In this document: positions 3,404 through 64,000 of the stretch, piece by piece
How positions within the stretch are numbered: position 1 is the first letter of the stretch
Layout of the letters: the number at the start of each line of letters is the position of its first letter
The notes under the pieces: generated by a model
Told to the model about the DNA's origin: nothing
The model's input: only the letters and a program-made list of their open reading frames with translations
Databases searched by the model: none
Position numbers and translations under genes: made by a program
Source of the DNA: Hygrophila difformis
Lineage: Eukaryota; Streptophyta; Magnoliopsida; Lamiales; Acanthaceae
Length of the DNA: 64,000 nt
Assembly: GCA_030278955.1 (NCBI GenBank)
Contig: JAOANR010000005.1
Span: 30,371,849 to 30,435,848 of the forward strand
Direction: 5' to 3'

Positions 3404-4225
3404 CTTTGTAACACCCCGGATTTGATAACCCAGGCCGGGATGTCACCGCCACACCTCCCTAGCAAGACACGGTTTCTCCGAGCTTGCTAAAGAGATGCAA
3501 GGCTATGGTTTTTCAGAATTTAAAACATTCAAACAGCCCATTTCAATATAACTTAAAAGTCATAATATCAAAGTTGCAGCGGAAAGTAATATTTACATAT
3601 GTATAATGCAGCTGAATTTAAGTATGGGGCCGACATGGCCAAAACACGGGTTAAACAGGCCCGTTTATGCAAGTCGTAATTAATTGCAGGAATTTAAAAT
3701 TGAGTTTTCCCCGAATGTCCCCGTGTATGCATATAATGATGCGTAATCCTCAACTCTGAAAGAAAAAGGGAAAAACGGTTTGGGTCAGCAAAAACGTGCT
3801 GAGTAAGTTAATACCTACTATGATCAAGGGGTTTCAAAATCTTTAATTAAATTTAAGGAAAACATATGCATAAGAGACATGATTTAAAATTTAATTCATC
3901 TACTAATAGTAATTTAATTACATAATTTAGAAGACAAGGATTTCCACACGTTCATAATTTAACACACATGAAAAAGGGGTTTAATTAAATAATTAAATTT
4001 TCCTCCTAGGCATGCATACAAAGATATTCCATTTACAAATTTTAAAGTAAATAATTTAATTGTATATTTGAACATGCATTACTCCATAATAATAATTTCA
4101 TAAGATATGAAAATTTAAAGACATAATTTAAAGGCGTAATTTAAGGACGTGCATAATTAAATAAATACTTAAAAATATTAAATCTTTTAATTCCCCGTTA
4201 CGTAACCATTCCTTAGTATTTTGTA

Positions 4226-4541
4226 TAGCCGGTGATCCGGCGGCCGCAGCCGTGTCATAAGTATCTTGTATAGCCGGTGATCCGGCGGCCGCAGCCGTTT
4301 CATAAGTATCTCGTTTAGCCGGTGATCCGGCGGCCGCAGCCGTGTCATAAGTATCTTGTGTAGCCGGTGATCCGGCGGCCGCAGCCGTTTCATAAGTATC
4401 TCGTTTAGCCGGTGATCCGGCGGCCAGCAACCGTTTCGTAAGTATCTCATTTAGCCGGTGATCCGGCGGCCAGCAGCCGTTTCGTAAGTATCTCATTTAG
4501 CCGGTGATCCGGCGGCCAGCAGCCGTATCTGCCATACCCAG
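4226..4541. repeat. Seven-copy 45-46 bp stem-loop array in LTR
   Basis: Copies begin at 4226, 4271, 4316, 4361, 4406, 4452 and 4498. Each contains the hairpin GCCGG-TGAT-CCGGC followed by a GC-rich GGCCGC or GGCCAGC block and an AT-rich spacer. The first five copies are exactly 45 bp apart, a multiple of three, which explains the repetitive open frames read across it on the minus strand. The related LTR at 47376-49943 has one degenerate copy near 49226-49258. Confidence 0.9.
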
Positions 4542-6687
4542 TAACACTCCGGAGCCTCGGGAAATCCATACGGACAAACCCGAGAGAGTAGGCCATGTGT
4601 CTCCCGCCGATTGGCGTAATATCTCATCTAATTTCTCTCGTCCATTATAGGCCCGAAGAGAAAGGCTAGAGGGGCACCCTGCAGAGCACTCACCCTCCAC
4701 CCAAGTATCTCATGTATTGTTTAGTTTTAATGTATCGGGGTTTTTCAAAAGTATAAATGTATCGTATTTCAAGTCTTTGATCGTTCGTTTCGAAATTTCA
4801 AAATCTTTCGATTTAAAAGTCATTTGGCGTCACAGTTTACGCCTTTTCAATTTAAAAATTCAATTCACGTCCGAAAAATCTGAAATCTTCACAGTTTATG
4901 CAAAACACCCTAACGAACAACTTTCGTGTTTTAACTTTTTCGAAATAAGTTGAGGAAACATGTCAAAAATCGATTTTATTATGCAATCAGAAATCTGTCC
5001 GAACTCAGGTTTGACACAGTTCAAAATTTCGACGTTTTAACATATCAAATGGACTTCAAAAATTCTGAAATTTAATATGCACATACTAGACATGATTATC
5101 TACAACTTTCATTTAGATTGTAAAGATCAAATCGGAATAGAAAATATAGAAATAAATTCACTAAGTTCGAACATGTTCATAGGCAGATTTCCACACGTTT
5201 TGTCAAAACAGTTTCTTTTCGATGCGATTTAAAATAGCAAATGTTAATGAAAATGTCTGAAATTTTTAAACAACCTAGATTTATGTGTTAGGATTAAAAG
5301 TCTAGTTTTGAGTTTTTGGGTTTGAACTCTCGAAATAGGGGTTTTGGTCCAATTTCAAATCGGTCACAGTTTCACATTCGACTCTCAAGGCAGGTTCTTT
5401 CTCGGCCGTTTTCAGATATCAAACCTCAATGAAAAATTATGAAAATTTTACACGAACTAGATCTATGTCTTAGGAGCGTTTTTCATGTTTTGAGTTTTTC
5501 CGTTTGAGCAGTTTTAAGGGTTCGAAAAATTCGCACACAATCGCTGCGCCGGGGGTTTTTCGTGTTGACAGATTTTAGAGTTACTAAATCTCTATGTTTG
5601 GTTACATTTTACGTCACCCAAAACCAAGTAAGCATTAACTTACAGTGGGGATGATGTCTAGGAGGTCACGGGGTCGTCCGGAATCCACGGGATGTCACGA
5701 ACGAATCTCCTCAAGTCGGTTTCCTCTTCCAACGTCCATGAATCGAATCCGAAAGCAAAAGTTTAGGGTTAGATCGGATTTTCGGGCATCGAAAACTTAA
5801 ACAAAAACCTATGGACGACTTACCACAATCTGGAATACTAAGGATGTTGTTCTCCACGCCTCCTACGTCGATTTTCGTCGCCGGAAAGTAATCGGAGAGT
5901 CGTCGGAAAGTGAAGAACTTGTGTTTTCAGATTTCGGAAGAAGTTTGGAGAGAATGGAGAGGAGAGGGGGCTGCTAGGGTTACTTTGGACGAAATTATGA
6001 GTTCCAAGACCTCAAAATCCGTCCATATGCTCCTTCCTTCGACTGGGATTGGGTTTCCAAAGTCGGGGGGTCGAAATATGGCAAGAAATCCCCGAAATCG
6101 CGCGAATGGCAGCTGCTGTCTTGGTGGCGCGGGGTTGGGGCGGTTTTTAGCCAAAAACCGCCCGGAGGGCGCGCGGCCTGGTCTGGGCCGTGCGTCCGGA
6201 CTGGGCCGTGCGATCCCGTCGGGCCTTTTCTTCTCTCTTTCGGACTTCTGTCCTCCTACGTTTTCGGGCTTGATTTTTCGGGTCATTCTCGGATCATAAA
6301 TTCTTATCTTAAATTTATCTCGACTCAAATAAATTTCATGTTTGAAATCTTAAGTTCGTCGGTCTCGGGTTCGTCGGCTTCCAATTCGTCGTCTTTTGAC
6401 TCCCGTGCAATAACTTGTGTGATTAAATTTCTTCCGACTTCACGGGTTCTTGGAATTAGAATTATTTTCCTTCTTGAATTTAATTCCAATTATTTTGACT
6501 CAATTCATGGAATGTCTTCGGGCTTCCTTTCCCTCTTTTATTCCATTTTGAATTTTGAACCTATCGGCGTTTCATTTCCGAGCAATAATTTATTGTGATA
6601 AATTATTTTCTTCTTCTCGGAGATATTTCGACATCGATCGGAACAATTTTATTCCTTTGGACGTTGATAGAAATCTGGGGTATTACA

Positions 6688-42426: not shown

Positions 42427-44215
42427 TGTAATACCCGAGAATTTTGCAACATAAAACAAATAAATAAATAAAATAAAATAAAATAAATAAACAATAAATT
42501 TAACAATAACAATAAATAAATATAATAAATAAATAAACATAATACATAGATAAGGAAATGAGAAATGAAATTTAATTTAAGAAGGAATTAAATTTCCAAT
42601 AATCAAATAAATTGTATACGGGAACCCGACACCAATGGACTCGAGAATTCGAGGCCAATATTAAATCTAGTCTCGAGTAAAATTTTAGATAGGAAATTGG
42701 AGTCCGACAATAGCCCAAAAATCGGAATCCGAGAACATAGAGGGATAGAAGTCCGAAAGAGAGGAGGAAAGGCTCGACGGATCGCACGACCCGCCCGGAT
42801 CGAAGTCCAGGAGGTGACCGCGCGGTGTTTCCCCTAAACGGCGCGCCAAGCCCGCGCCGTCGGGCAGTAACAAACCATGCGAGATTTTCTCGCCCGAATC
42901 CAATTTTTTTACTTCGGTTGCTCACCTTGCGGCTCAAGGCTTACTACGGCAGACTTTGGATGTCCCCTAGGTCCTTTACATCTATAAATAAGTACCCTGT
43001 TCAATCCTGAACACTTTTCAAAACCCTACGAAAAATCTCTACACATTAAACCCTAATCCCGGAAGTCGTCGGAGGCACAAAACCAAGAGGAGGGACTGTC
43101 TTGGACGAAAATTGGAAGGCCTTGTCGTTGTGGTAAGCTCTGGTCTGAATCTTTTCCATTCTTGATTCGAAAATGAATTCTAACTTCATCCTTTTTCCCA
43201 TTCTACACCCCGATTCGGATCTAGAAAGAAGAACCCGACGAATCAAGGAGATAAACGGTGGACTGGAATCCACGCCTTCGAATCAACGAGCCGAAACATC
43301 CACAAATCTTTAAGTTAACGCTTACGTGGTTTTGGGAGAATTTAAAATACACCTAATCTAAAGATTTAATCAAGAACTTAAAAATCTGTTAACACGAAGA
43401 TCTCTACGGTGCAGCATTTTTTCACGATTTTTCCGAACCTTTAAAACTGATCGAACGAGAAAACTTAAAACACAAAAAACGTTCCTAAGACATAGATCTA
43501 TCTCCTGTAAAAACTTCATATTTTTTCATTAAGTTTTGATATCTGAAATCGACCCCAAACCGAACTGTTCTAAATTTAGATCTTGAAATCTTGACAGAAC
43601 TTTAGTCCGAACTTGTAGACGTTTTTTACAATAGATCTAACCGATTCAGAACTTTAGTCGAACATGAAACTTGTAGATATATGTCTTAAGTATCTCCCTG
43701 TAAAATTTCATCAAATTTGGAGTTAGTTTGCTATGGTAGATCTCGAAATTTTGCAACTGCTGTGTAGAAATTCGGACAGATTAATATCCTGATGAAAATC
43801 GACATTTTTGACTTATTTTCTTAACTCGGATCAAAAAGTTAAACCACAAAACTTGTTCATCTTTGTGTTTTCGAGTCACTGGTCAAATTTCAGAATTGTC
43901 GGACTTAAAACGGATTTTTAATAAATTTTGGAATAAACAGTGGTTTATCGAAGTCAAATCTTGAAATCTTGTTGAAACGGTGAAATTAGCCTTTAAGGTT
44001 TAAACGAGTAGAATTCTCTTATTGAAATAAATACATGAAATTAGAATCTTTGAAAAATCCACTTACAAACTTGATCAATTAAAATTAGGGGGTGAGTGCT
44101 CTGCAGGGTGCCTCCCTAACGATTCACTTCGTGCCTTTATGGACGATGGTGACCCCGCGCGAAATTTGAGATACATTGCCAAAAAGGCATGAGATATATG
44201 TCCTACACTCTCGAG
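42427..44215 (+). repeat. Element 6, 5' LTR (3' part deleted)
   Basis: Aligns with about the first 1.8 kb of the 3' LTR at 47376-49943, with extra TAAA/TAAAA repeats near 42460-42490. The match ends around CTCTCGAGAATA (44208-44219). Confidence 0.88.
42983..42990 (+). promoter_or_regulatory. Element 6 5' LTR TATA box
   Basis: TATAAATA in ACATCTATAAATAAG, conserved at 47940-47947, about 560 bp into the LTR. Confidence 0.7.
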
Positions 44216-47124
44216 AATACCCGGATGTGTTTCCCGAAGACATTCCGGGCATGCCACCTAAGCGAGATCTTGAATTCACCATAGATCTCATTCCGGGAAC
44301 CGAGCCTGTCTCAAAAGCTCCATACCGGATGGCACCACTGGAAATGAAGGAGTTAAAGGAACAACTTGAGGAGTTACTGCAGAAAGGATACATAAGACCG
44401 AGTACTTCCCCATGGCGAGCACCGGTTTTATTTGTTAAGAAGAAAGACGGAGGATTACGTCTTTGTACAGATTATCGGGGGTTAAACCAAGTGACCATCA
44501 AGAATAAGTACTCTCTGCTGAGAATTGAGGATCTGTTTGATCAACTGAAGGGAGCTTCACTATTCTCGAAGATCGACTTACGATCTGGGTATCACCAGTT
44601 GAGAATCGCTGAGAAAGACATTCGGAAGACGGCGTTTCAAACTCGATATGGCCACTACGAGTTCACAGTGTTATCCTTCGGGTTAACAAATGCTCCAGCA
44701 ATGTTCGTGAACCTCATGAACAATGTGTTTCGAGAGTTGTTAGATCAGTGTGTAGTGGTGTTCATTGATGACATCCTGATCTACTCGAAGAGCGAGGAAG
44801 AGCATGCCCAACACTTGCACTAAGTGTTATGGACCTTGCGAAAGAACCAACTATACGGCAAATTGTCCAAATGCGATTTTTGGTTGAAGGAGGTAGCATT
44901 TCTTGGACACATAGTATCCGCTGATGGAGTTTCAGTGGATCCGGCAAACGTTTCTGTTGTGACAGAGTGGGCAGCGCCAAAGAGCCCAACTGAGATAAGG
45001 AGTTTCCTTGGATTAGCCGGGTACTATAGACGGTTCGTGAAGGATTTTTCGAAAATTGCACGTCCATTGACCCAGCTACTGAAGAAAGGAGTAAAATACG
45101 AGTGGACAGAGGCGTGTGAGGCTGCGTTTCAAGAGCTAAAGAAACGACTCACAACCACACCCGTATTGACGCTACCATCAGAGAATGGTGACTTCGAAGT
45201 TTACAGCGATGCTTCGAAGGAAGGTTTAGGTTGTGTCTTGATGCAAGACTCGAGGGTCGTTGCATACGCATCACGCCAACTGAAACCTCACGAAGAAAAT
45301 TACCCGACACACGACCTGGAGTTGGCAGCGGTTGTTTTCGCTCTAAAGATAGGGAGACATTATCTTTACGGGCGAAAGTGTCGAATGTTCACTGACCACA
45401 AGAGCTTGAAGTATATATTCACTCAGAAGGAGTTGAATCTGAGACAGCGAAGGTGGTTGGAACTTATTAAGGATTATGATTTGGAGATATCCTACCACGA
45501 GGGGAAGGCAAATGTGGTAGCCGATGCCCTAAGCCGGAAAACCCAACACGTGACAAACTCGTTAGTAATTCCGCCGGCATTGTACATGGATTTGGCAAGA
45601 TTAGATGTGGAACTTGTGCATCCGGGCACAGTGAGTGAAACAATCAACGCGATGGTTGTAGAAACTCCAATATTGGACGAGATTAGACTCGCCCAATCGG
45701 GCGACGCAAAATTGGAGAGGATAAAGGAGTATATTGCCGAGGTTAAGGCAATAGAATTTGCTATCCATGAGGATGGAAGCATTCGCTTCAAAGGGAGGGG
45801 GTGTGTGCCTCAAAAGTGTGCCGAGTTGAAGCAAAGGTTGATGAATGAAGGGCACAACACACCATATTCAGTGCATCCCGGAGGTGACAAACTTTATAAG
45901 GATCTGAAGAAGATCTACTGGTGGCCGGGAATGAAAAAGGAAGTTGCAGACTTCGTGGCGAAATACCTCACCTGCCAAAGGGTTAAGGCAGTGAGACATA
46001 AACCCTTAGGACTGATGCAACCACTAGAGATTCCAAGTTGGAAGTGGGATAGCATCTCGATGGACTTTGTCTCGGGATTACCACGATCACCTAAAGGCAT
46101 GAATAAGATTTGGGTGATTGTGGATAGGCTAACGAAGACGGCCATATTTAGCCTGATGAAGGACATGTGGACTATGGACCAATTGGCCCGAGCCTACATT
46201 GATAATGTGGTACGACGACATGGAGTACCACATGACATCATTTCTGACAGAGATAGTAGATTTGTCTCTCATTTTTGGACGGAGTTACAAAAAGCTCTCG
46301 GTACTCAAATCAAAATGAGCACTGCATTCCACCCAATGACGGATGGACAAACCGAGAGAATGATCCAAACACTAGAAGACATGCTTAGAACATGTGTGTT
46401 GGAGTTTAAGGGAAATTGGGAAACTGATTTACCCTTAATTGAGTTTTCCTATAACAATAGCTACCATGCTAGCATTGGCATGGCACCTTTCGAGGCGTTG
46501 TATGGACGAAAGTGCCGAAGCCCGTTGAGCTGGGAAGAAAATGATAAGTTTGTGGTAGTGGGACCACAAATTGTCGAAGATATGGCTCAACAGATAAAGG
46601 TGATTCAAGGGAAAATGAAAGCCGCTCAAGACCGTCAGAAGGGTTATGCTGACGTGAGACGACGAGACCTAGAATTTCAAGTAGGAGATAGGGTCATGCT
46701 AAAGATATCACCCATGAAGGGGGTGATGCGCTTTGGCAAACGAGGGAAGTCGAGTGCTCGATACATAGGACCTTACAAAATTCTAGAACGAGTCGGAAAT
46801 TTGGCCTACCGACTGGCTTTACCGCCACAATTAGATCGAGTTCATAACGTCTTCCATGTCTCACAACTAAAGAAATATGTGCCAGACCCGACACATGTCC
46901 TTCAACCGGAAGTAATCGAACTCGATGAGGATCTGACTATGAAGAAGTCCCAGTATGGATTCTAGACGTTAAGGAGCGAGTAACAAGGAATAAAACCGTC
47001 AAAATGGTCAAGGTTCTTTGGTCGAACCATGAAAGCGAAACAGCAACATGGGAGTTAGAATCAGACATGAGAGAACGTTACCCGACACTGTTCCAAACCG
47101 ACACCGACACAGTTATGGTGACAT
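44176..47124 (+). pseudogene. Element 6 pol: RT, RNase H, integrase, chromodomain; broken
   Basis: The frame opens in LTR-derived sequence and joins pol at [15 protein letters not shown] motifs include [31 protein letters not shown] and the catalytic FIDD in [12 protein letters not shown] near 44765. A TAA at 44821 then breaks it. From 44824 the frame is open for 713 codons: RNase H ([26 protein letters not shown]), integrase zinc finger ([15 protein letters not shown]), core with D in [10 protein letters not shown] in SDRDSRF and E in [10 protein letters not shown], and the integrase C-terminus ([17 protein letters not shown]). A one-base loss near 46938 shifts the frame before the chromodomain, which continues in another frame to about 47124 (KMVKVLWSNHE, ATWELESDM). 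The chromodomain places it in the Tekay/Del chromoviruses. Confidence 0.92.
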
Positions 47125-47133
47125 AACTACAAT

Positions 47134-47149
47134 CTTAAGGAGGAGAGGA
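47134..47149 (+). other. Upstream polypurine-tract-like site, apparently not used
   Basis: CTTAAGGAGGAGAGGA followed by TGTCACACC lies right after the end of pol, at the position where the elements at 1-6997 and 53446-64000 start their LTRs. In this element the LTR does not start here but 226 bp further on. Confidence 0.75.
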
Positions 47150-47359
47150 TGTCACACCATGTATTTTCCGTACATTTTTGTAAACAAGTAAATTCAAATT
47201 GTTTTGAACTACGTTATGGCTTGATCCCTTCACAGGGTACGTAAGCAGCTTAGAAATTTTAATTCTAAGTTCAGTCACTCACAAAATAATAAAATAAACA
47301 AAAGGATTCGTTCTTAACACGAGAAAAGCCGAAACACAACTTCGAGGACGAAGTTGATT

Positions 47360-47375
47360 CTTAAGGAGGGTAGAC
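47360..47375 (+). other. Element 6 polypurine tract (used)
   Basis: CTTAAGGAGGGTAGAC directly precedes the LTR start TGTAATACCCG. A hairpin AACTTCG-AGGA-CGAAGTT lies just upstream. The matching copy in element 1 is internal to its LTR. Confidence 0.88.
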
Positions 47376-49943
47376 TGTAATACCCGAGAATTTTGCAACA
47401 TAAAATAAATAAACAATAAATAAAATAATAACAATAAATAAATATAATAAATAAATAAACATAATACATAGATAAGGAAATGAGAAATGGAATTTAATTT
47501 AAGAAGGAATTAAATTTCCAATACCCGTAAAGCCAAAGATAATGTAATCAAATAAATTGTACACGGGAACCCGACACCAATGGACTCGAGAATTCGAGGC
47601 CAATATTAAATCTAGTCCCGAGTAAAATTTTAGATAGGAAATTGGAGTCCGACAATAGCCCAGAAATCGGAATCCGAGAACATAGAGGGATAGAAGTCCG
47701 AAAGAGAGGAGGAAAGGCTCGACGGATCGCACGACCCGCCCGGACCGAAGTCCAGGCGGTGACTACGTGGTGTCAGCGCGGTGTTTCGCCTAAACCGCAC
47801 ACCAAGCCCGCACCGTCGGGCAGTAACAAACCATGTGAGATTTTCTCGCCCGAATCCGGATTTTTCGACTTCAGTTGCTCACCTTGCGGCTCAAGGCTTA
47901 CTAGGGCAGACTTTGGACGTCCCCTAGGTCCTTTACATCTATAAATAAGCACCTTGTTCAATCCTGAACACTTTTCAAAACCCTAAGAAAATCTCTACAC
48001 ATTAAACCCTAATCCCGGAAGTTGTGGAAGGCACGAAACTAAGAAGAGGGGCTGTCTTGGACGAAAATCGGAAGGCCTTGTCGTTGTGGTAAGCTCTGGT
48101 CCAAATCTTTTCCATTCTTGATTCGAAAACGAATCCTAACTTCATCCTTTTTCCCATTCTACACCCCGATTCGGATCTAGAAGGAAGAACCCGACGAATC
48201 AAGGAGATAAACGGTGGACTCGAAGCCACGCCTTCGAATCAACGAGCCAGAAAATCCACACATTTGTAGTTAACGCTTACGTGGTTTTAGGAGAATTTAA
48301 AATCACCTAATCTAAAGATTTAATCAAGAACTTAAAAATCTGTCAACACGAAGATCTCTACTGCGCAGCATTTTTGCACGATTTTTCCAAACCCTTAAAA
48401 CTGATCGAACGAGAAAATGTAAAACACGACAAATGTTTCTAAGACATAGATCTATCTCCTGTAAAAATTTTATAATTTTTCATTAAGTTTTGATATCTGA
48501 AATTGACCCCAAACCGAACTATTCTAAATTTAGATTTTGAAATCTTGACAGAACTTTAGTCCGAACTTGTAGACATTTTTGACAATAGATCTAGACCAAT
48601 TCAGAACTTGAATCGAACATAAAACTTGTAGATATATGTTTTAGGTATCTCCCTGTAAAATATCATCAAATTTGGACTTAGTTTGCTATGGTAGATCTCG
48701 AAATTTTGAAACAGCTGTGTAGAAATTCGGACAGATTAATATCCTGATGAAAATCGACGTTTCTGGCTTATTTCCTTAACTCGGATCGAAAAAGTTAAAA
48801 CACGAAACTTGTTCGCCTCTGTAGTTTCGAGTCTCTGGTCAAATTTCAGAATTTTTGGACTTAAAACGGATTTTTAATAAATTTTGGAATAAACATTGGT
48901 TTATCGAAGTTAAATCTTGAAATCTTGTTGAAACGGTGAAATTAGCCTTTAAGGTTTAAACGAGTAGAAATCTCTTATTGAAATAAATACATGAAATTAG
49001 AATCTTTGAAAAATTCCCTTACAAACTTGATCAATTAAAATTAGGGGGTGAGTGCTCTGCAGGGTGCCCCCCTAACGATTCACTTCGTGCCTTTTAAGGA
49101 GGATGGTGAACCCGCGCGAAATTTAAGATACATTGCCAAAATGGCATGAAATATATGGCCTACACTCTCGAGAATATCCATTTGGGTTTCCCGATGCTCC
49201 GGAGTGGTACTGGGTATGGCGGATACGGCTACGGCCGCCGGGCTACCGGCTAAACTTGACGAAATTGCGATGCAATCGTGAAATACTTGAAATACTAAAT
49301 CTTGGATGTAATGGGGATAATAAAAATAATTATTTATGGTCAATTTAAATTATTTAATGCTTCGTTTAAATTAATTATGGCTTTGATTAAACTATGCTAA
49401 ATGTGCTACTTGTTAGAATCCATGAATTAGCTATGCAAGTTATTTAGTTAATTCAATTAAATTATTTATGAATTATGATCATGCTTTTGTTTAAATATTA
49501 CGTTAATGGCTTTGAAACCTTACGATCATGTATGTGTTAACTTACTCAGCAAGTTGTGCTGACCCAAAACCATTTCTTTCTTTTTCCTACAGAGCATGTG
49601 GATTATACTTGAGCACGTGCATGCATGGGATTTTTGGGAACACTTTATTTTTAAATTTTGCATTAGACTATAGTATGGACGGGCTTGTTTAACCCGTGTT
49701 TTGGCCATGTTGGCCCTATTTACATTTTCTGCTGCAATACTTATACTTAGATATTATTTTTTCGCTGCATTATAATATTATTTTTCAATTTATATTGTAT
49801 GGGCTATTTTAATTGGTTTAAATATTTTAAATTCTACAATATCTAGCCTTGCATCTCTTTAGTAAGCTCGGAGAAACCGTGTCTTGCTAAGGAGGTGTGG
49901 TGGTAACATCCCGACCTGGGTGACCAAAAACTGGGGTGTTACA
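47376..49943 (+). repeat. Element 6, 3' LTR (2568 bp)
   Basis: Begins TGTAATACCCG, ends GGGGTGTTACA, followed by AGAAT. It holds a TATA box (47940-47947) and near 49226-49258 one degenerate unit of the GCCGG stem-loop repeat that is amplified seven-fold in element 1. Its last part matches the left end of the LTR at 3407-6997 reversed. Confidence 0.93.
47940..47947 (+). promoter_or_regulatory. Element 6 3' LTR TATA box
   Basis: TATAAATA, same context as 42983-42990. Confidence 0.68.
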
Positions 49944-53445: not shown

Positions 53446-56191
53446 TGTAACACCCCGGATTTGATAACCCAGGCCGGGATGTCACCGCCGCATTTCCTAG
53501 CAAGACACGGCTTCCCGAGCTCGCTAAGGAAACGCAAGGCTTGTGGGTATGGAAAAGATTTAAAACATTTCAAGATTTAGTCCGGAAATTTATAATACTT
53601 AGTACGATAATAGAAATTATCACGTGCGGAAAATAAATAAAGTAAGTGCAGCGGAAAGTAAAATCACGGCCGACATGGCCAAATCCTCGGGTTTAACAGA
53701 CCCGGTAAAAACAGTACGATGCAGAAATTTAAAATGTCCATTATGATTTCCCCCAAGTGCATATGCAATGCGTCACTCGACGTACTCTGAAAAAAAGAAA
53801 TGACAACGGTTGTCAGTATAAAAATATACTGAGTAAGTTAATCCCCAACTACAAATAAAAGGGGTTACAAGTGTTTAAACTAAAGATTTCGCTTACCGTA
53901 CGGGAATTTAAAAATACATGATTTATTTGCAGCGGAAAATCATGATTACAGAACTTAATTTAAAAAGCGAAATTTAAAGCATAATTTAAGATGCGTAAAT
54001 TTCAAATGCATAATTAAAGACAGGATAAATACGATTTAAGCATAATGAAACACTCACACGAGTCTTTTACTTTTCATCCCGTAAACTAAGAAGAGGACAC
54101 CATACCGGGAGATCACTAACGAGGCAATCTCAACATAGGACCACTAACGAGGCAGTCCAAACAATGGGAGACCACTAACGAGGCAGTCTCAAAGATAGTA
54201 GGACCACTAACGAGGCGATCCAAAAAGATAGCAGGACCACTAACGAGGCGATCCACAAATACAGCGCGCGAGATCACTAACGAGGCAATCTCAGATAGTA
54301 AGGAGACCACTAACGAGGCAGTCTCAAAGATAATGATAGTATGAAGATCGGCTCAGCCTAGTGAACGGGATTTTTCGAAAGTTCGTATTTCAAAGTTATC
54401 AAATGATCGATATCGCGTTTTCATAGTTCGAGTTTTTTCATGTTCGAAAAATCCTATTCGAGGCAGTTTACGCCTTTCTTAATTTAAAATTCGTCCTTTC
54501 TCCAAAAATTCTGAAATTTTTACAATAATTCAAAAACACACATACGAACAACTTTCATGTTTTAAGTTTTTGGAAATAAGGTTCCGAAGTGAGTTGAAAT
54601 CCGAGTTTGTTGCAAAGAATAAGTTATGTCTCAAAAACCGTTTTCGTCACAGGTTCGTGCAACGCTGATTAAAAATTCATTTCAAAACCAATCGATGTGA
54701 AATTTTTACAGTAACTACGCGACACATTAAGGAACAACTTTCATGTTTTAAGTTTTTGGAAATAATGAATTCTTGGTACTCAAAAATCGAGTGCAACTCA
54801 CTGCATACTCATGGCCCTTAAAACGAATTCAAAACAGTTCTAAAAACTTGGCCGTTTGACATATCAAATGAACACCAAAATTCGTGAAATTTTGTAGGCA
54901 TAATCTAGACACAATTATCTACAACTTTTGTTTAGAAATGCAAAGTTAAATCATTCGAAAAATGGGTGAAAAACATGCATCAAGTTGAATGAAGGAATCT
55001 GTCACAGAATTAAATTGTTCGGTTCGATACAGAAAGTTCATGGCGAAAATTGGGATAGCAAAACTTAATGTCAACGGCTGAAATTTGGCCACAAGATAGA
55101 TAAAGGTGTTAGGAACAACTTTTATGTTGAAAAGTTTTCGGTTTGAATTCCCGAAGGTCGTGTTTTTGGCGAGTCTTTAAAATTGGACGAAAATAGGGTT
55201 TTTGAAAACCGATTTTTGTTACAAGCCTATATCTCGAGATTTAAACAACAAACAACCACGAAAATTTGTGAGTAAGGTTTTAACTTACTTAGGATGATGA
55301 TAGGGTCGCTGGATTGGGTTTCCGGACGTCCTAGGGTCACGACGAACGGCCAACTTCTCCGATCGCTTTTTGTTCGTTTTCCGACGGAGAATCGTAGTAA
55401 GGAAATAGTGTTAGAATTCGAGTTTCTGAGACTTATGGACGAATTGAAACTTTGTACAATAGCTTACCAAGAGTCTAGAGGGCAGGGCTTGGTTCCTTTC
55501 GCCTTGCCGTCGCCGGAATTCTTGCCGGAAAGTGAGTTCGGAGAGGTTTCGACTTGGAGAGGAGTTTTGGAGGTGTTTAGGGTTAGGTTTTCTGAGAGTG
55601 AGGGGGAGGGGCGCCCCAAATCTGATCTTATGCCCTTCCCCATTGTTGTGATCGACTTGCCATTGATGGAGGTCGGATTTTTGGCAAGAAAATCGCCATG
55701 GAAGGAAAGTTTACACCTCCTGCACCTCTGGCGCGCTGGTGGCGCGCACATAGGCCTTTGTGCGCGCGGAGCACGCGTGACCTTCCCTGGGGGCGCGACG
55801 CCCTTGGCCGCGCGGCGGCGCGCGGGCAGCGCGGGCCGGCCGGACCGGCCGGTTCGGCGGTCCGCGTGTTCCGTCGGGTCTTCCCTCGCTTTCCCCTATC
55901 GGTTTTCTACGTGTTAGCTCGATTCCCTGGGTCGTCTTCGTTGCGGAATCTTCTCCTTAATCTTGTTACGAGTCCGGCTTATCGCTCGCAACATTTCCGG
56001 GTCCTACTTAGCCTAGTCTAAATTGGTTCCACATCTCCTATCGTCCTTGTGATCTAATTCGTGATGTATTTTGTGATTTGTTTCGTGACTGAACTTAGAA
56101 ATTAGTTCTAAGCTGCCTACGTACCCTGTGAAGGGATCAAGTCATGACGTAGTTCAAAACAATTTTAATTTGTTTTTCCTCGGGTGTTACA
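53446..56191 (-). repeat. Element 8, 3' LTR (2746 bp)
   Basis: Starts TGTAACACCCCGG and ends CGGGTGTTACA on the + strand. It contains the seven-unit stem-loop array (54109-54325) and a GC-rich part near 55730-55870. I found no clear TATA box in it. The five bases before it are GCCTA, the possible target duplication. Confidence 0.94.
54109..54325. repeat. Seven-unit stem-loop array with constant loop (element 8, left LTR)
   Basis: Seven units share the core CACTAACGAGGC. Five have perfectly complementary arms that differ between units: GAGAT/ATCTC (units 1 and 6), GGAC/GTCC (2), GAGAC/GTCTC (3 and 7). Units 4 and 5 have GGAC with ATCC, giving one A-C mismatch. Spacers between units vary in sequence and length. 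Confidence 0.92.
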
Positions 56192-56210
56192 TCCTCCCCC
56201 CCCCCTTAAG
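56192..56210 (-). other. Element 8 polypurine tract
   Basis: On the minus strand CTTAAG, a long G-run, then AGGA abuts the LTR start TGTAACACCCG. Confidence 0.92.
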
Positions 56211-56217
56211 AATACAG

Positions 56218-59200
56218 TTATGTCCCCATAACTGTGGTCGGGTCGTCTTGGAAGAGGGTAGGGTAACGTTGCCTCATGTCGGCTTCCAATTCCCAGGTTG
56301 CCGTCTCCGTCTCGTGGTTGGACCACAGGACCTTGACCATCTTTACAGTTTTATTCCTTGTCACCCTTTCCTTGTAGTCGAGTATTTGCACCGGGGTTTC
56401 TTCATAGGTCAAGTCATCATCCAATTCGATTACGTCCGGTTGGAGTACATGCGACGTGTCGGGCACATACTTCTTTAGCTGGGAAACGTGAAACACGTTA
56501 TGGACGCGTGCTAGTTGAGGCGGCAGCGCCAGCCGGTACGCCAGATTCCCCACTCTCTCTAGGATCTCATATGGCCCTATGTATCGTGGGCTCAGTTTCC
56601 CTCGCTTGCCAAAGCGCATTACGCCCTTCATTGGCGAGACTTTCAGCATGACCTTGTCACCGACTTGAAATTCCAAGTCCTGCCGTCTCACGTCCGCATA
56701 ACTCTTTTGCCGGTCCTGAGCGGCTCTCATCTTCCCCTGGATAACCTTAACTTGCGAGCCATGTCCTCCACCAGTTGTGGCCCTACCGTCATTATTCGAT
56801 CATTCTCTTCCCAACTCAATGGGCTCCGGCATCTTCGTCCGTACAGCGCTTCGAAGGGCGCCATGCCGATGCTCGCATGATAACTGTTGTTATAGGAGAA
56901 CTCGATCAAGGGTAAGTGGTGCTCCCAACTTCCCTTGAATTCCAACACACAAGCCCTCAACATGTCCTCCAGCGTCTGTATAGTTCGCTTCGTCTGTCCA
57001 TCTGTCATAGGGTGGAACGCCGTACTCATCTTTATCTGCGTCCCCAGAGCTTCTTGCAGCTTGGTCCAAAACTGGGAGACGAATCTGCTATCCCTATCCG
57101 AGATGATGTCATGCGGCACCCCGTGCCGGCGTACCACATTGTCTACGTATGCTCTTGCTAGTTGGTCCATTGTCCAAGTGTCCTTCATCGGGATGAAAAT
57201 GGCGGCCTTCGTTAACCTATCCACGATCACCCAGATCTTATTCATTCCTTTTGGCGAACGTGGCAACCCTGAAACAAAATCCATGGAGATGCTATCCCAC
57301 TTCCAGCTTGGGATCTCCAATGGTTGCATTAATCCTAAGGGCTTTTGCCGTACTGCCTTGATCTTCTGGCAGGTAAGGCACATTGCCACGAATTCGGCCA
57401 CCTCTCTCTTCATGTTCGGCCACCAATAATTTTTCTTCAAGTCCTTGTATAGCTTATCCCCTCCGGGGTGGACCGAGTAGGGGGTGCTATGGCCTTCCTC
57501 CATCACCTTCTTCTTCAGATTTGCGGACTCCCGCAGTATACACCATCTTCCCCTGAAGCGGATGCTCCCGTCCTCGTGAATCTGGAAATCTACTGCCTTT
57601 CCTTCGGCAATGCTTCTCCTTATTTCCTCCATCTGTTCGTCACCCGCCTGGGCGAGTCGTATTTCTTCGAATACGGTAGGGCTTACTACCATCGCGTTGA
57701 CGACCTCGGTTACCGTACCGGGCTGCACCAGTTCCAGGCTTAGTTTCGCCAAATCTCTGTACAATTCGGCCGGTATCACCAGTGAGTTCGTGACGTGTTG
57801 CGCCTTCCGACTCAAGGCGTCGGCCACGACGTTGGCCTTGCCCTCGTGATACGCGACTTCTAGGTCGTAATCTTTGATCAGTTCCAACCACCTCCTCTGC
57901 CTCAAGTTCAGCTCTCTTTGCGTGAATATGTACTTGAGGCTCTTATGGTCGGTGAACAACCGACATTTCCGCCCATAGAGATAGTGTCTCCAGATTTTCA
58001 GGGCGAACACGACCGCGGCCAGTTCCAGGTCGTGCGTCGGGTAGTTTTGCTCGTGCGGTTTCAGCTGTCGTGATGCGTATGCTATGACTTTTTGATCCTG
58101 CATCAGTACGCATCCCAGTCCTTCTCTCGAGGCGTCGCTATACACCTCGAAGTCTCCATCCTCTGATGGTAACGCCAACACCGGCGCCGTGGTAAGTCGT
58201 TTCTTCAGCTCCTGGAATGCGGCTTCACACTCGCCAGTCCAGTCATACTTCACCCCCTTCTTCAGCAGTTGGGTCAATGGGCGGGCGATTTTGGAGAAGT
58301 CTTGGACAAATCGCCTGTAGTAGCCCGCCAGTCCGAGAAAGCTTCTTATCTCCGTTGGGCTCTTCGGGGGTACCCACTCAGTTACAGCCGAGATTTTTGC
58401 CGGGTCTACCGCCACTCCGCTGGCGGATACGATATGCCCAAGGAATGTTACCTCCCTCAGCCAGAAGTCGCATTTGGACAACTTCCCATATAGCTGATTT
58501 TCTCGGAGGATCCTCAGCACTTTATGTAAGTGCTCGGAATGTTCTTCCTCGTCCCTTGAGTAGACCAAGATGTCGTCTATGAATACCACTACGCATTGAT
58601 CTAACAGTCCTCGGAACACGTTGTTCATGAGGTTCATGAACATCGCCGGGGCGTTCGTCAGTCCGAATGACAGTACTGTGAATTCGTAGTGTCCGTAGCG
58701 AGTCCTGAACGCTGTCTTCGGGATGTCCTTCTCAGCAATTCGCAGCTGATGATATCCCGATCGCAGGTCGATCTTGGAGAACACAGTAGCTCCCTTCAGC
58801 TGGTCAAACAGATCCTCGATTCTGGGCAACGGATACTTGTTCTTGATAGTGACTTGATTAAGTCCCCTATAGTCAATACACAGTCTCAGACTCCCATCCT
58901 TCTTTTTGACGAATAAGACCGGTGCTCCCCATGGGGACGTACTCGGTCGGATATATCCCTTTTCCAGCAATTCTTCGAGTTGTTCCTTTAGCTCCTTCAT
59001 CTCCGGCGGTGCCATGCGGTAAGGAGCCTTTGATACAGGTTCCGTTCCCGGGATAAGATCTATGGTGAACTCGAGATCCCTCTCAGGGGGCATGCCAGGA
59101 ACGTCCTCTGGGAACACATCCGGGTACTCTCTCACCACCGGAATGTCTATCTTTACCCCTTCAGCCTCGAGGTTGTGAACGTAGCATGCGTATAGCGCGT

Positions 59201-60888
59201 GGCCCTTACGCATTAGGCTACCTAACTCTAGGACGTTGATTAACTTGTTAGATTTCTTAGGGGGTTGAGAGTAGAAGATGACTCTTTTCCCCCTACTTTT
59301 TGACAGCGTGATCTTTTGCTTTTGGCATTCGATCACGGCCTTATACCGGGTTAGCCAATCCATTCCTAGTATGACGTCAAAGTCCCTGACGTTGAACTCT
59401 ACCAAGTTTGCGAAAAACTCTACGTTCTTTATCACTATAGGTATTCCATTGTAGCGTTTAGAGCATGCTATTACTTCTCCAGAGGGCAGTTGGATGCCTA
59501 AGCTAATTATCTCGCACTTAGGTAGATCTAGTTCAGTTACGACTCTCGAAGATACAATCGAGCAACTGGCTCCGGAATCAAATAAGACTCTAAGTGGAGT
59601 ACTTAGGACATGGAAAGTACCTGCCATCACGTCACCCTGCGCGGGTATGTCAGCCTGGTTGATCACGTTCAACCTCCCCATCGGCCTCCCTTGATTGGCT
59701 GGCTGGTTTTGATTTTGGTTTGCATTTTGCTGCTGGTTCGGAGGGCGTTGGTTCGGATTCGGAGGAGGCCGATATCCTTGATTGTTGCCATTCCTACCTC
59801 CCTGGTTGAACGGCTCGTTAGGTCCAATGACCAAGTCTTCTCTTTTCGTGATGTTCTCGAGTCGGGTTCGACATTCCTCCCTCCGATGGCCAATTCGGCC
59901 GCACCGGAAGCACTCGCCCATCTGAGGACACCTCCTTACCAGGTGCGGCCTGCCACATCGTGGGCACGGCGGCACTCGTCCTCCTTGGTTGACATTCCGA
60001 CCATTGTTGTTCTGAGCATTCCCGTTCGGCCCTCGCCGAAAGTTGTCCCCGCCAGTAGTGTTGCTTGTCCGGTTATCCCTGTTCCTCTTGTCTGGGCCTT
60101 GCGCCCCTCGGCTAGATTCCCCAGCAGCCTTCCTCTTTAGCTGTTGCACTCGTGCTACTGCTACTGCACGATCGTAGACAGATTGCAGGTCCGGGTAGTT
60201 AACTCCAGTGATCACCTCTCGAATCGACAAGTTCAATCCCATTTCGAACTTTTGCGCCTTCTCCCCGTCAGTAGGTACCATCCTGGGCGCAAATCTCACC
60301 AATTCCTTAAACCGTGCATAGTATTCTTGAACAGATTTCTCTCCCTGCTTCAGGGATGAGAACTCCTCGTATAGTGCTGCCTTAGTACTCATCGGGTAGA
60401 AGCGCTCCCGGAGTAACTCCATGAACTCGTTCCACGAGTAAGGTTCATCATCCTCTGCCAGCTTCCCTTGGGTAGCCTGCCACCAGTCGTCGGCCTCGCC
60501 ACCCAGATAGTACGAGGCCACGTGGACCTTCTCCCCCTCCGGGCATCTCACCGCCTTTAGCAATTTGTCGAAGGTTCTCAACCATTCTTCCAGCTTAGCG
60601 GGGTCTTCCTCCCCGACGTAGTAAGGAGGTCGGTAGGGGTTCACCGCGGCCAAGTAGTTGATCCTCGCTTCCGGTGGTGGCGCCGCGGCAGCTCCCCCTG
60701 GTTAACGTAAGCATTACCAGTGCAATTAGTAATTCTTCCATATTTCTCAATCGCCCTTCCGCAGGGTTAGGCATTGGTCCCGCCGGGTTTGGCATCTCCG
60801 CGTCCGGTGCCTGCTCATTGGGTTGTCCCGGCGTGCCGTGGGTGTTGGGGGTGGCAGGGAAGGGCCTTGGTCGTCCTCGAGGCGCCAT
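56218..60888 (-). pseudogene. Element 8 gag-pol, nearly intact
   Basis: Gag opens at the ATG at 60888 (MAPRG). The frame shifts near 60705 beside a G-run, then 1308 codons are open from 60653 to 56727. Numbering from 60653: gag core (1-190, with DDWW and [11 protein letters not shown]), zinc knuckles [14 protein letters not shown] and [14 protein letters not shown] (230-261), protease DSGAS (359-363), RT with FIDD (691-694), RNase H from YSDAS (838), integrase zinc-finger region (about 1055-1095), integrase core with D1125 and D1186. The third catalytic residue, expected Glu at 1222, is Lys. A one-base loss near 56755 shifts the integrase C-terminus and chromodomain (TYEETPVQILDYKERV, ATWELEADM) into the frame 56730-56218. 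The chromodomain of this clade directs integration to particular chromatin. The frameshift by the G-run could be a sequencing error. Confidence 0.93.
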
Positions 60889-61245: not shown

Positions 61246-61773
61246 CTAATCCTGCGAAGGGTATGTGGTCGGGTCCTCCATGGGGTCATCCTCGCCACTT
61301 GATTCCTCGATGGTGCCCGTGCCAAGGGGCCCATGGAACACTGGGCTGGCTGGCCAACTGGGCCCAGCAGCAGGAGCAAGATCAACGATTGCAACTGGGG
61401 TCGGGACGGCTGCAGGGACAGCGACAGGGTCAATAACGAGGCTAGTTACAGGAGGAGTTCCTGGGTTGAGTGGGGCAGGTGGAAGCAGATCGTCCTTCAG
61501 GTGATGCAGTTGATGTCCCAAGACCCCTGCTTGGGTCTCTACGTCGTCAATCTGGGTCCAAAGCTCAGTCTCGCGGGTCTGGAGTTCGTTGATTTGGACT
61601 TGGAGTTGGGTTATATCTTGGTGTCCTGCTTGGCCCAGATTAGTTAGGTGGCCCAAGTTAGCTTCCATTTGCTCTACCCTTAGTCTGAAGTTGTTCACGT
61701 TTTGAGGAGATTCGAGGTATGCTTCAATCAACCTCATTAGTAGGTTGATCATGTTCACGTTTGGGAAAGCCAT
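61246..61773 (-). CDS. Extra leader ORF of element 8, function unknown
   Basis: A 175-codon frame from the ATG at 61773, between the primer binding site and gag, in the same orientation. Residues about 25-95 are heptad-like and predicted to form a coiled coil (VEQMEANLGHL, ELQTRETELWTQIDDVET), followed by a Pro/Ala/Val-rich part and an acidic end (ESSGEDDPMEDP). It has no zinc knuckle or enzyme motif. It lies some 360 bp upstream of gag, so translation of gag from the same RNA would need splicing, reinitiation or a separate start. I do not recognise a family. A non-coding explanation is possible, but an ATG start, a coherent coiled coil and a frame free of stops in a young element favour a gene. 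Confidence 0.6.
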   Translation of the reverse strand: MAFPNVNMINLLMRLIEAYLESPQNVNNFRLRVEQMEANLGHLTNLGQAGHQDITQLQVQINELQTRETELWTQIDDVETQAGVLGHQLHHLKDDLLPPAPLNPGTPPVTSLVIDPVAVPAAVPTPVAIVDLAPAAGPSWPASPVFHGPLGTGTIEESSGEDDPMEDPTTYPSQD

Positions 61774-62094
61774 CTATTGTTAACAAGGTAGGTTAGAGTT
61801 AGACGTTTTTCAGGCAAAGTTAAGGTATGCATAAATTTAAATCTATATGCAACATGCAAGTGCAAGTCCCTTCCCCATAAAATTTAGTTTAAAATAAATT
61901 GCTAAAGGTTGGGCCTCTATAGTGGGCCAAAATTTAATATTTCTTGGGCTAAGATGTGGGCTATGTAAAAAGGATTATAGATTTTTGGGCTAAAAATAGT
62001 ACTAGTAGTCAAATAAATAATTTTAAAAGGAAATAACACTTGGGCTTAAAAATATTGGTTTAAAATAATAGTAGTAGCTTTAAAAATTTTCCGG

Positions 62095-62106
62095 GCTCTG
62101 ATACCA
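62095..62106 (-). other. Element 8 primer binding site (initiator tRNA-Met)
   Basis: Minus strand TGGTATCAGAGC, three bases from the LTR end at 62110, same spacing as in element 1. Confidence 0.93.
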
Positions 62107-62109
62107 ACT

Positions 62110-64000
62110 TGTAACACCCCGGATTTGATAACCCAGGCCGGGATGTCACCGCCGCATTTCCTAGCAAGACACGGCTTCCCGAGCTCGCTAAGGAAACGCA
62201 AGGCTTGTGGGTATGGAAAAGATTTAAAACATTTCAAGATTTAGTCCGGAAATTTATAATACTTAGTACGATAATAGAAATTATCACGTGCGGAAAATAA
62301 ATAAAGTAAGTGCAGCGGAAAGTAAAATCACGGCCGACATGGCCAAATCCTCGGGTTTAACAGACCCGGTAAAAACAGTACGATGCAGAAATTTAAAATG
62401 TCCATTATGATTTCCCCCAAGTGCATATGCAATGCGTCACTCGACGTACTCTGAAAAAAAGAAATGACAACGGTTGTCAGTATAAAAATATACTGAGTAA
62501 GTTAATCCCCAACTACAAATAAAAGGGGTTACAAGTGTTTAAACTAAAGATTTCGCTTACCGTACGGGAATTTAAAAATACATGATTTATTTGCAGCGGA
62601 AAATCATGATTACAGAACTTAATTTAAAAAGCGAAATTTAAAGCATAATTTAAGATGCGTAAATTTCAAATGCATAATTAAAGACAGGATAAATACGATT
62701 TAAGCATAATGAAACACTCACACGAGTCTTTTACTTTTCATCCCGTAAACTAAGAAGAGGACACCATACCGGGAGATCACTAACGAGGCAATCTCAACAT
62801 AGGACCACTAACGAGGCAGTCCAAACAATGGGAGACCACTAACGAGGCAGTCTCAAAGATAGTAGGACCACTAACGAGGCGATCCAAAAAGATAGCAGGA
62901 CCACTAACGAGGCGATCCACAAATACAGCGCGCGAGATCACTAACGAGGCAATCTCAGATAGTAAGGAGACCACTAACGAGGCAGTCTCAAAGATAATGA
63001 TAGTATGAAGATCGGCTCAGCCTAGTGAACGGGATTTTTCGAAAGTTCGTATTTCAAAGTTATCAAATGATCGATATCGCGTTTTCATAGTTCGAGTTTT
63101 TTCATGTTCGAAAAATCCTATTCGAGGCAGTTTACGCCTTTCTTAATTTAAAATTCGTCCTTTCTCCAAAAATTCTGAAATTTTTACAGTAATTCAAAAA
63201 CACACATACGAACAACTTTCATGTTTTAAGTTTTTGGAAATAAGGTTCCGAAGTGAGTTGAAATCCGAGTTTGTTGCAAAGAATAAGTTATGTCTCAAAA
63301 ACCGTTTTCGTCACAGGTTCGTGCAACGCCGATTAAAAATTCATTTCAAAACCAATCGATGTGAAATTTTTACAGTAACTACGCGACACATTAAGGAACA
63401 ACTTTCATGTTTTAAGTTTTTGGAAATAATGAATTCTTGGTACTCAAAAATCGAGTGCAACTCACTGCATACTCATGGCCCTTAAAACGAATTCAAAACA
63501 GTTCTAAAAACTTGGCCGTTTGACATATCAAATGAACACCAAAATTCGTGAAATTTTGTAGGCATAATCTAGACACAATTATCTACAACTTTTGTTTAGA
63601 AATGCAAAGTTAAATCATTCGAAAAATGGGTGAAAAACATGCATCAAGTTGAATGAAGGAATCTGTCACAGAATTAAATTGTTCGGTTCGATACAGAAAG
63701 TTCATGGCGAAAATTGGGATAGCAAAACTTAATGTCAACGGCTGAAATTTGGCCACAAGATAGATAAAGGTGTTAGGAACAACTTTTATGTTGAAAAGTT
63801 TTCGGTTTGAATTCCCGAAGGTCGTGTTTTTGGCGAGTCTTTAAAATTGGACGAAAATAGGGTTTTTGAAAACCGATTTTTGTTACAAGCCTATATCTCG
63901 AGATTTAAACAACAAACAACCACGAAAATTTGTGAGTAAGGTTTTAACTTACTTAGGATGATGATAGGGTCGCTGGATTGGGTTTCCGGACGTCCTAGGG
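62110..64000 (-). repeat. Element 8, 5' LTR (partial, cut by window edge)
   Basis: Copy of 53446-55336 at offset 8664, starting TGTAACACCCCGG. About two mismatches by eye, for example at 63189 against 54525. The rest, including the 5' end of the element, lies right of the window. Confidence 0.94.
62773..62989. repeat. Seven-unit stem-loop array (element 8, right LTR)
   Basis: Identical copy of the array at 54109-54325. Confidence 0.92.

Follow-up and report, generated by a model that had tools for sequence, protein, structure and literature searches.

Rows of short hairpins at a common place within long terminal repeats of Ty3/gypsy retrotransposons of Hygrophila difformis

The window, by which we mean the whole stretch of 64,000 nt that was analysed, comes from Hygrophila difformis (assembly GCA_030278955.1, contig JAOANR010000005.1, positions 30,371,849-30,435,848 of the forward strand). 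Its minus strand carries a Ty3/gypsy LTR retrotransposon, here termed X, which bears an array of hairpins with the loop CUCGUUA. Two related elements of the same window are termed E1 and E3. The main parts of X are as follows.

53446..56191, minus strand: 3' LTR, 2746 nt, in the sense direction TGTAACACCC...GGGTGTTACA, a 99.89% match to 62110-64000
56192..56207, minus strand: polypurine tract, a purine run identified by eye next to the 3' LTR
56727..60701, minus strand: gag-pol open frame, with gag, RT and integrase pieces identified separately
62095..62106, minus strand (read 62106-62095): primer binding site TGGTATCAGAGC, adjoining the 5' LTR
62110..64000, minus strand: 5' LTR, incomplete because the window ends inside it, with 2 differences in the 1891 nt shared with the 3' LTR

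The primer binding site, which we take to be of the tRNA-Met type, and the gag-pol frame both read on the minus strand, which is therefore the sense strand of X. The LTRs are direct repeats, 99.89% identical, with TG...CA bounds (TGTAAC...GTTACA), and the element is young, since just 2 of the 1891 shared positions differ. In sense order, the Pfam domains are Retrotrans_gag, Ty3_capsid, RVT_1, Integrase_H2C2 and SH3_Tf2-1, so that RT precedes integrase as the Ty3/gypsy order requires. X presumably resembles the Tekay chromovirus lineage; filing it there was dropped, as the C-terminal piece of its integrase contains no Pfam chromodomain at an E-value of 0.001. Upstream of gag lies an open reading frame of 175 aa (61246-61773, minus strand), the best Pfam match of which is below the cutoff. 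The stretch TTGTTAACAATAG (61774-61786, minus strand), directly before the ATG of this frame (61773-61246), has the look of an additional splice acceptor, and splicing of a donor in the LTR to it would yield a leader without upstream ATG.

Both LTRs of X contain the hairpin array.

54107..54328, minus strand: array of seven CUCGUUA hairpins in the 3' LTR, sense GAGAC-U-GC-CUCGUUA-GU-G-GUCUC and variants
62771..62992, minus strand: matching array in the 5' LTR, an identical set of seven, 8664 bases on

An earlier note on this DNA had described seven units with a constant core, and there are indeed seven exact CACTAACGAGGC cores in the 3' LTR array (54114, 54142, 54173, 54205, 54238, 54275 and 54308, the units spanning 54114-54319) and seven more in the 5' LTR (62778-62983). 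The arm pairs that it listed, GAGAT/ATCTC, GGAC/GTCC and GAGAC/GTCTC, are all present. Elsewhere in the window, CACTAACGAGGC has a single match with one mismatch, at 61431; at this tolerance of no more than one mismatch, the expectation for the window is 0.17 matches, and the largest number in a shuffle was 2. For the 3' LTR array (54107-54328), TRF reports a period of 33 and 6.8 copies.

The strand and the loop have to be read differently from the note. The RNA corresponds to the minus strand, and thus to the reverse complement of the units as quoted there, and the stem takes in part of the 12-mer that had been regarded as the loop. The sense hairpin has an 8-bp stem (7-bp in the GGA types) and the loop CUCGUUA, with four arm types in the window, GAGAC/GUCUC, GAGAU/AUCUC, GGAU/GUCC and GGAC/GUCC. 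The units with cores at 54205 and 54238 read GGAC...GATCC on the plus strand, where pairing is incomplete, whereas on the minus strand they give GGAU/GUCC, with a U.G wobble that exists in the sense strand only. All seven units of X have lower fold energies in sense (-7.3 to -9.2 kcal/mol) than in antisense (-3.3 to -6.4 kcal/mol), and compared with dinucleotide shuffles the whole array has a z of -3.0 in sense and -0.8 in antisense. A search of the window with Rfam 15 at gathering score gave no match, hammerhead included, and the reading of the array as a hammerhead or other known RNA was rejected.

Genome-wide, the CACTAACGAGGC core occurs 27,021 times (13,304 + 13,717), against 10 (4 + 6) for the reversed control, and the CUCGUUA loci hold two to eight units each. 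The hairpin was also found in 102 stretches of a prokaryote collection, with one match in each of the 80 listed, and in 9 stretches of a viral collection, with no two-unit array among them; we rejected these single scattered matches as homologues and take them as chance. From 49 stretches (the window plus 48 loci, L136 and L155 being one place), 281 CUCGUUA units were sampled, of which 62 were distinct and 54 were left after the arm filter. Their stem cells are paired in 91.0% of cases, compared with 86.0% after shuffling, and the covariation score is 0.274, compared with 0.194 after shuffling and 0.225 in the best slid register; none of 500 shuffles, which ignore the relatedness of the units, was as high by either measure. 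Double changes, counted in the sampled units, include pairs often changed on both sides, with A-U replaced by G-C in 14 units and C-G replaced by U-A in 23 and by U.G in 4. Kinship inflates two measures least, namely the pairs changed on both sides (3, compared with 1.7 in shuffles, 61/500 as high), which show no clear excess, and the further pair types (10, compared with 10.2, 470/500 as high), which show none. Independent events are therefore few. The claim of the earlier note that pairing itself is kept thus agrees with the paired fraction and the score of the 54 units; in the both-side changes and pair types, its proposed check, whether the arms covary beyond chance, gave no clear excess. 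On balance, the pairing of the CUCGUUA arms looks kept. We regard it as likely that RNA structure is kept in the arrays, a confidence slightly lowered by the relatedness-robust counts, which do not exceed the shuffles.

The place of the array in the LTR is shared with other families.

53829..53841, minus strand: branchpoint-like 13-mer TTAACTTACTCAG of X, with 20,615 copies in the genome (reversed control 26)
4209..4526, minus strand: array in the E1 LTR, a 45-nt repeat with seven GCCGG-AUCA-CCGGC hairpins, occupying the equivalent position in the predicted intron
49200..49300, plus strand: one GCCGG-GCUA-CCGGC hairpin in the E3 LTR, at the corresponding place

The TTAACTTACTCAG motif is common to X, E1 and E3, near the 3' end of the LTR. 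The E1 array folds far below its shuffles in sense only (z -5.3, antisense -0.9). In some CUCGUUA copies, a second hairpin series lies between the first and last units (CUGCC-AAAUC-GGCAG, CUGUC-AAAUU-GACAG, CUGUC-AAAU-GACAG or -GGCAG, UUGCC-GAAAU-GGCAA, and UAGCC-AAAAC-GGCAG, of which the inner part alone pairs), and it closes with GCCGG-UUCA-CCGGC, a terminal hairpin that resembles both the E1 hairpin with its seven repeats and the single E3 hairpin. In the element E3 (window 42475-47400), the 5' LTR breaks off immediately ahead of the hairpin place and runs into pol-like sequence, and gag and primer binding site are apparently missing.

To survey the place, 60 LTRs were sampled by eye from about 100 listed TTAACTTACTCAG places, a non-random set from contig C1 that was meant to hold one LTR per pair, with known CUCGUUA-type places left out, and that may still include some LTR pairs or near relatives. 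Of the 60, 38 have at least three hairpins belonging to a single class, as tallied by motif count or TRF unit. The classes are T-arm-like (10 LTRs; sense CCUG-C-GGG-UUCGAUU-CCC-CAGG), GNRA (7; UUGCC-GAAA-GGCAA), ACAUAAGAG loop (7) and GCCGG-NNNN-CCGGC (14), and two additional LTRs with the last hairpin also belong to another class. Arrays reach up to 13 units of one hairpin; T-arm-like hairpins number 8-13 per stretch in L191, L195, L203, L219, L240 and L241. By our own tally, 22 of the 60 LTRs are without such a row, which is therefore not obligatory. In the 20 long stretches, all TRF arrays with a period of at least 26 and at least 3 copies lie between -745 and -190 of TTAACTTACTCAG, and arrays of 2 to 2.9 copies also occur outside that zone (L186, L190, L199, L201). 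Arrays with a period of at least 26 lie in the zone in 37 of the 60 LTRs, two of them (L210, L231) being other repeats. Upstream of arrays there is a recurrent hairpin, GUGCUC-UGCA-GGGUGC (motif TGCAGGGTGC; E3 48990-49100, E1 4640-4700 and 18 of the 60 LTRs), whose self-complementary loop gives it the look of a dimer-initiation site, and a 73-nt repeat in five copies with GUGCUC...GAGUGC (L231:290-656) seems to be another amplified hairpin-like unit.

The arrays at this common place are non-homologous between families. When six LTRs that represent the classes are compared by local BLAST, 13 of the 15 pairs match in the 380 nt that begin with TTAACTTACTCAG (best matches of the 3' parts 72-91% over 45-392 nt), and 1 of the 15 matches in the array stretches, over 29 nt between two LTRs with GCCGG hairpins. 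Gapped global identities (0.74-0.86 in the array zones, only slightly less than in the 3' parts) were rejected in favour of local BLAST, being inflated by cheap gaps.

Arm association recurs in classes unrelated to CUCGUUA. T-arm-like units (72, reduced to 47 distinct, or 41 distinct 26-mers) are paired at 93.9%, compared with 88.4% in shuffles, and score 0.315, compared with 0.199. For ACAUAAGAG units (41, reduced to 26 or 24 distinct, units whose loop differed from GGACATAAG at two or more letters being dropped), the values are 91.1% compared with 82.9%, and 0.293 compared with 0.148. As for CUCGUUA, 0 of 500 shuffles were as high in either class, and with registers slid by one the arms show no association. 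One T-arm-like pair is C-G, U-A, U.G or A-U and another G-C, A-U or G.U; in the ACAUAAGAG class, U-A, A-U and G.U alternate at one pair, and the bulged base is variable. Neither class has an excess in pairs changed on both sides (T-arm-like 3, compared with 2.6, 269/500 as high; ACAUAAGAG 3, compared with 2.2, 153/500) or in pair types (11, compared with 10.3, 174/500; 9, compared with 8.5, 266/500). GNRA and GCCGG units are nearly invariant, so that neither yields covariation evidence. Identity within the X, T-arm-like and ACAUAAGAG arrays is 90-100% for loops, 65-79% for arms and 46-68% for spacers, the loop value being partly built in by core patterns that allow one or two changes. The spacers of the GNRA and GCCGG arrays are 78-100% alike, nearer to hairpin identity, which suggests recent amplification.

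Which strand forms the structure can be judged from wobble pairs and loops. In the sense strand, 42 of the 54 CUCGUUA units have a U.G and 45 a G.U, the former touching the core used to find the units and the latter lying inside it. Over the arm cells of the three classes, 30 G.U face 12 A.C (P 0.004, a guide only, as the units are related). GNRA loops (42 of 44 intact-stem units) and T-loop-like loops (fifth base A in 71 of 72), named after the usual motif consensus, exist in sense only, in counts favoured by the search patterns. A general sense-strand folding bias was rejected: over 37 arrays, taken to a maximum of 331 nt and compared with 40 shuffles apiece, the mean z is -3.31 in sense and -3.14 in antisense, and the sense value is the lower one in 22 of the 37 (P 0.23), though X and E1 alone show a bias; the GNRA arrays are lower in antisense in 7 of 7. 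We hold the sense-strand claim with moderate confidence, strongest for the CUCGUUA class.

These data bear on a neutral origin, in which slippage or strand switching during reverse transcription makes the repeats and templated mutation perfects inverted repeats, mimicking compensation. The unit number that varies from two to eight between loci, the folding without general strand bias and the relatedness-robust counts at shuffle level in three classes would all fit, and tandem repeats are described as common in plant LTR elements in the available parts of PMC11963269 and PMC6317226. However, strand-symmetric correction should neither fix a sense G.U nor leave an excess of G.U over A.C, and it leaves unexplained the near-constant loops amid diverged spacers, the fixed place, and the several unrelated hairpins found there. 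We think a neutral origin unlikely.

It is reasonably probable that these LTRs hold a leader intron of about 1.5-2 kb, predicted from recurring donor-, branch- and acceptor-like signals, and the array of X probably sits in it.

53787..55467, minus strand: predicted leader intron of X, 1681 nt; the array starts 1142 nt after the donor and ends 322 nt before the acceptor
55626..55632, minus strand: TATA-like CATAAGA, putatively near the CTATAAATA position of other LTRs
55466..55467, minus strand: predicted 5' splice site CTCTTG/GTAAGC, with a like site in 12 of 17 LTR copies
53787..53800, minus strand: predicted 3' splice site TTTCTTTTTTTCAG/AGTACG

In 12 of 17 CUCGUUA-type stretches, a donor-like site of this kind precedes the first exact core by about 1150-1180 nt, and a pyrimidine tract and CAG follow TTAACTTACTCAG in 18 of 20 long stretches (by eye; exceptions L199 and L201). 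A CTATAAATA sequence followed by GGTAAG 147-153 nt later is present in E3 and 9 of 20 long sampled LTRs; the CTATAAATA TATA box was not found in 11 of the 20. The earlier view that the array would lie in transcribed LTR sequence is supported by its place downstream of the promoter-like position. Transcripts starting downstream of the array, which had been set against an RNA role, would not alone refute one, because U3 is also present at the 3' end of genomic RNA. The TTAACTTACTCAG-plus-acceptor pattern occurs in 7 contigs of the viral collection, six of them near-identical, with no hairpin core in the preceding 1000 nt.

Another possibility is that the inverted repeats are DNA-binding protein sites, for instance an enhancer or, for the T-arm-like hairpins, B-box-like Pol III sites in tandem. 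The T-arm-like hairpins contain GGTTCGATTCC, which we take to be the B-box consensus, and in tandem they could attract TFIIIC or tRNA-processing enzymes. U3 tandem repeats can act in transcription, according to the available part of PMC3601003. Yet the array is downstream of the TATA-like site, and the arms, which would be the half-sites, vary, and vary in pairs, while the loops vary less. A DNA element is very improbable.

The predicted intron of X contains 23 ATG, exon 1 none, exon 2 five and the internal leader three, and E3 and 7 of 9 further LTRs likewise have a predicted exon 1 free of ATG. Splicing alone would not clear the leader of X, because of the 5 + 3 ATG that stay. An unspliced leader so rich in AUG might suggest that the array helps translation by ribosome entry or uORF bypass, which we consider the least credible reading, as intron removal would take the array out of the mRNA and exon 1 would hold nothing to bypass. 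Roles in packaging, dimerisation and translation would look alike in the sequence. Two spliced-junction probes gave no match genome-wide (the first exact, the second with up to 3 mismatches). Among sampled LTRs, both unspliced halves of the first probe are present in 12 of 17 X-type and 14 of 30 mixed-type LTRs, and those of the second in 4 of 20. The lack of spliced copies would mean either that there is no splicing or that spliced RNA is not copied back.

Given such an intron, the hairpin row could simply slow its splicing, so that enough unspliced genomic RNA is exported and binding by Gag is not needed. In a set of 13 LTRs with a tandem array at the place, 190-471 nt separate the end of the last array from the branch-like motif downstream, and it is the intron signals that recur and not the hairpin sequence, as would suit a sequence-independent effect. 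The near-constant loops of each family instead suggest a partner that reads the loop, although loop identity is partly ascertained. Splicing control fits nearly as well as packaging, and we rate it as possible, if rather doubtful.

Our preferred, still tentative reading is that the array is a multivalent platform of RNA hairpins, kept as architecture and not as sequence, and most likely marking unspliced genomic RNA. The row of seven hairpins would lie in the sense transcript of X, inside the predicted 5' leader intron. Selection would keep pairing, loop and row, while arm sequences would change freely in pairs, as the arm association in the three unrelated classes suggests. Related families have the same architecture at the same place with unrelated hairpins, and hence the platform itself would be the conserved thing. 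A protein, in the first place the Gag or nucleocapsid of X and in the second a host RNA-binding protein, may bind the row cooperatively, reading the loop many times over. Because the array lies between the predicted splice sites, the hairpins would mark only unspliced RNA, which would serve as the genome, with spliced RNA as the mRNA. The packaging role as such is predicted with a little more reserve.

More speculatively, and with considerable doubt, there may be a large superfamily of plant LTR elements with an interchangeable intron module, a row of up to about a dozen hairpins with one loop, swapped wholesale between families, in which hairpin and Gag or host protein evolve as lock and key. 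Place and pairing would then stay while the hairpin sequence is replaced between families, and each family could single out its own genome in unspliced form and keep the RNA of relatives from being packaged. A repeated hairpin with a near-constant loop between predicted splice sites, swapped between families, is a directly testable candidate, with natural variants, for the means by which plant retrotransposons tell genomic RNA from mRNA, and their own RNA from that of many relatives, and thousands of copies are available for the study of how RNA structures originate, amplify and replace one another.

Retroviral psi leaders and dimer initiation sites have several short hairpins in the 5' leader, 3' of the splice donor and hence in unspliced RNA only. 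The hairpins of X would have a comparable place if the predicted leader and donor are used (for retroviral leaders, cf. the review PMC5035971). In contrast to psi, one hairpin is here repeated in tandem, with up to 13 units whose loop hardly changes, and in relatives its place is taken by unrelated hairpins. No description of an LTR intron with hairpin arrays was seen among the matches listed for LTR tandem repeats and hairpins, LTR introns and structure, plant repeat arrays and Tekay or chromovirus elements, mostly from non-subscription literature. Retrozymes have structured RNA in plant LTRs (PMC4918200 and PMC9695139, as far as available), in the form of hammerhead ribozymes, whereas the window has no Rfam match. 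Retand and other plant LTR elements have family-specific tandem arrays at a recurrent place, located between pol and the 3' LTR in the accessible text of PMC11963269, whereas X-type arrays are inside the LTR; 'hairpin', 'intron' and 'secondary structure' do not occur in the main text of that paper. Ogre, a plant Ty3/gypsy element, has a partially spliced intron (PMC6317226, available part), which lies between gag-prot and RT, whereas that predicted for the X type is in the LTR leader. The element BARE (Ty1/copia) has separate RNA pools for translation and replication and makes use of splicing, and conserved signals for dimerisation and packaging are ascribed to it (PMC3735527). Attempts to amplify copies of its spliced RNA from genomic DNA are reported to have failed, so that BARE would show, by another route, spliced RNA that is not copied back (PMC3735527). 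The spliced segment of BARE comprises 104 nt at the gag end, whereas the predicted X-type intron measures about 1.5-2 kb, lies within the LTR and holds the hairpin array.
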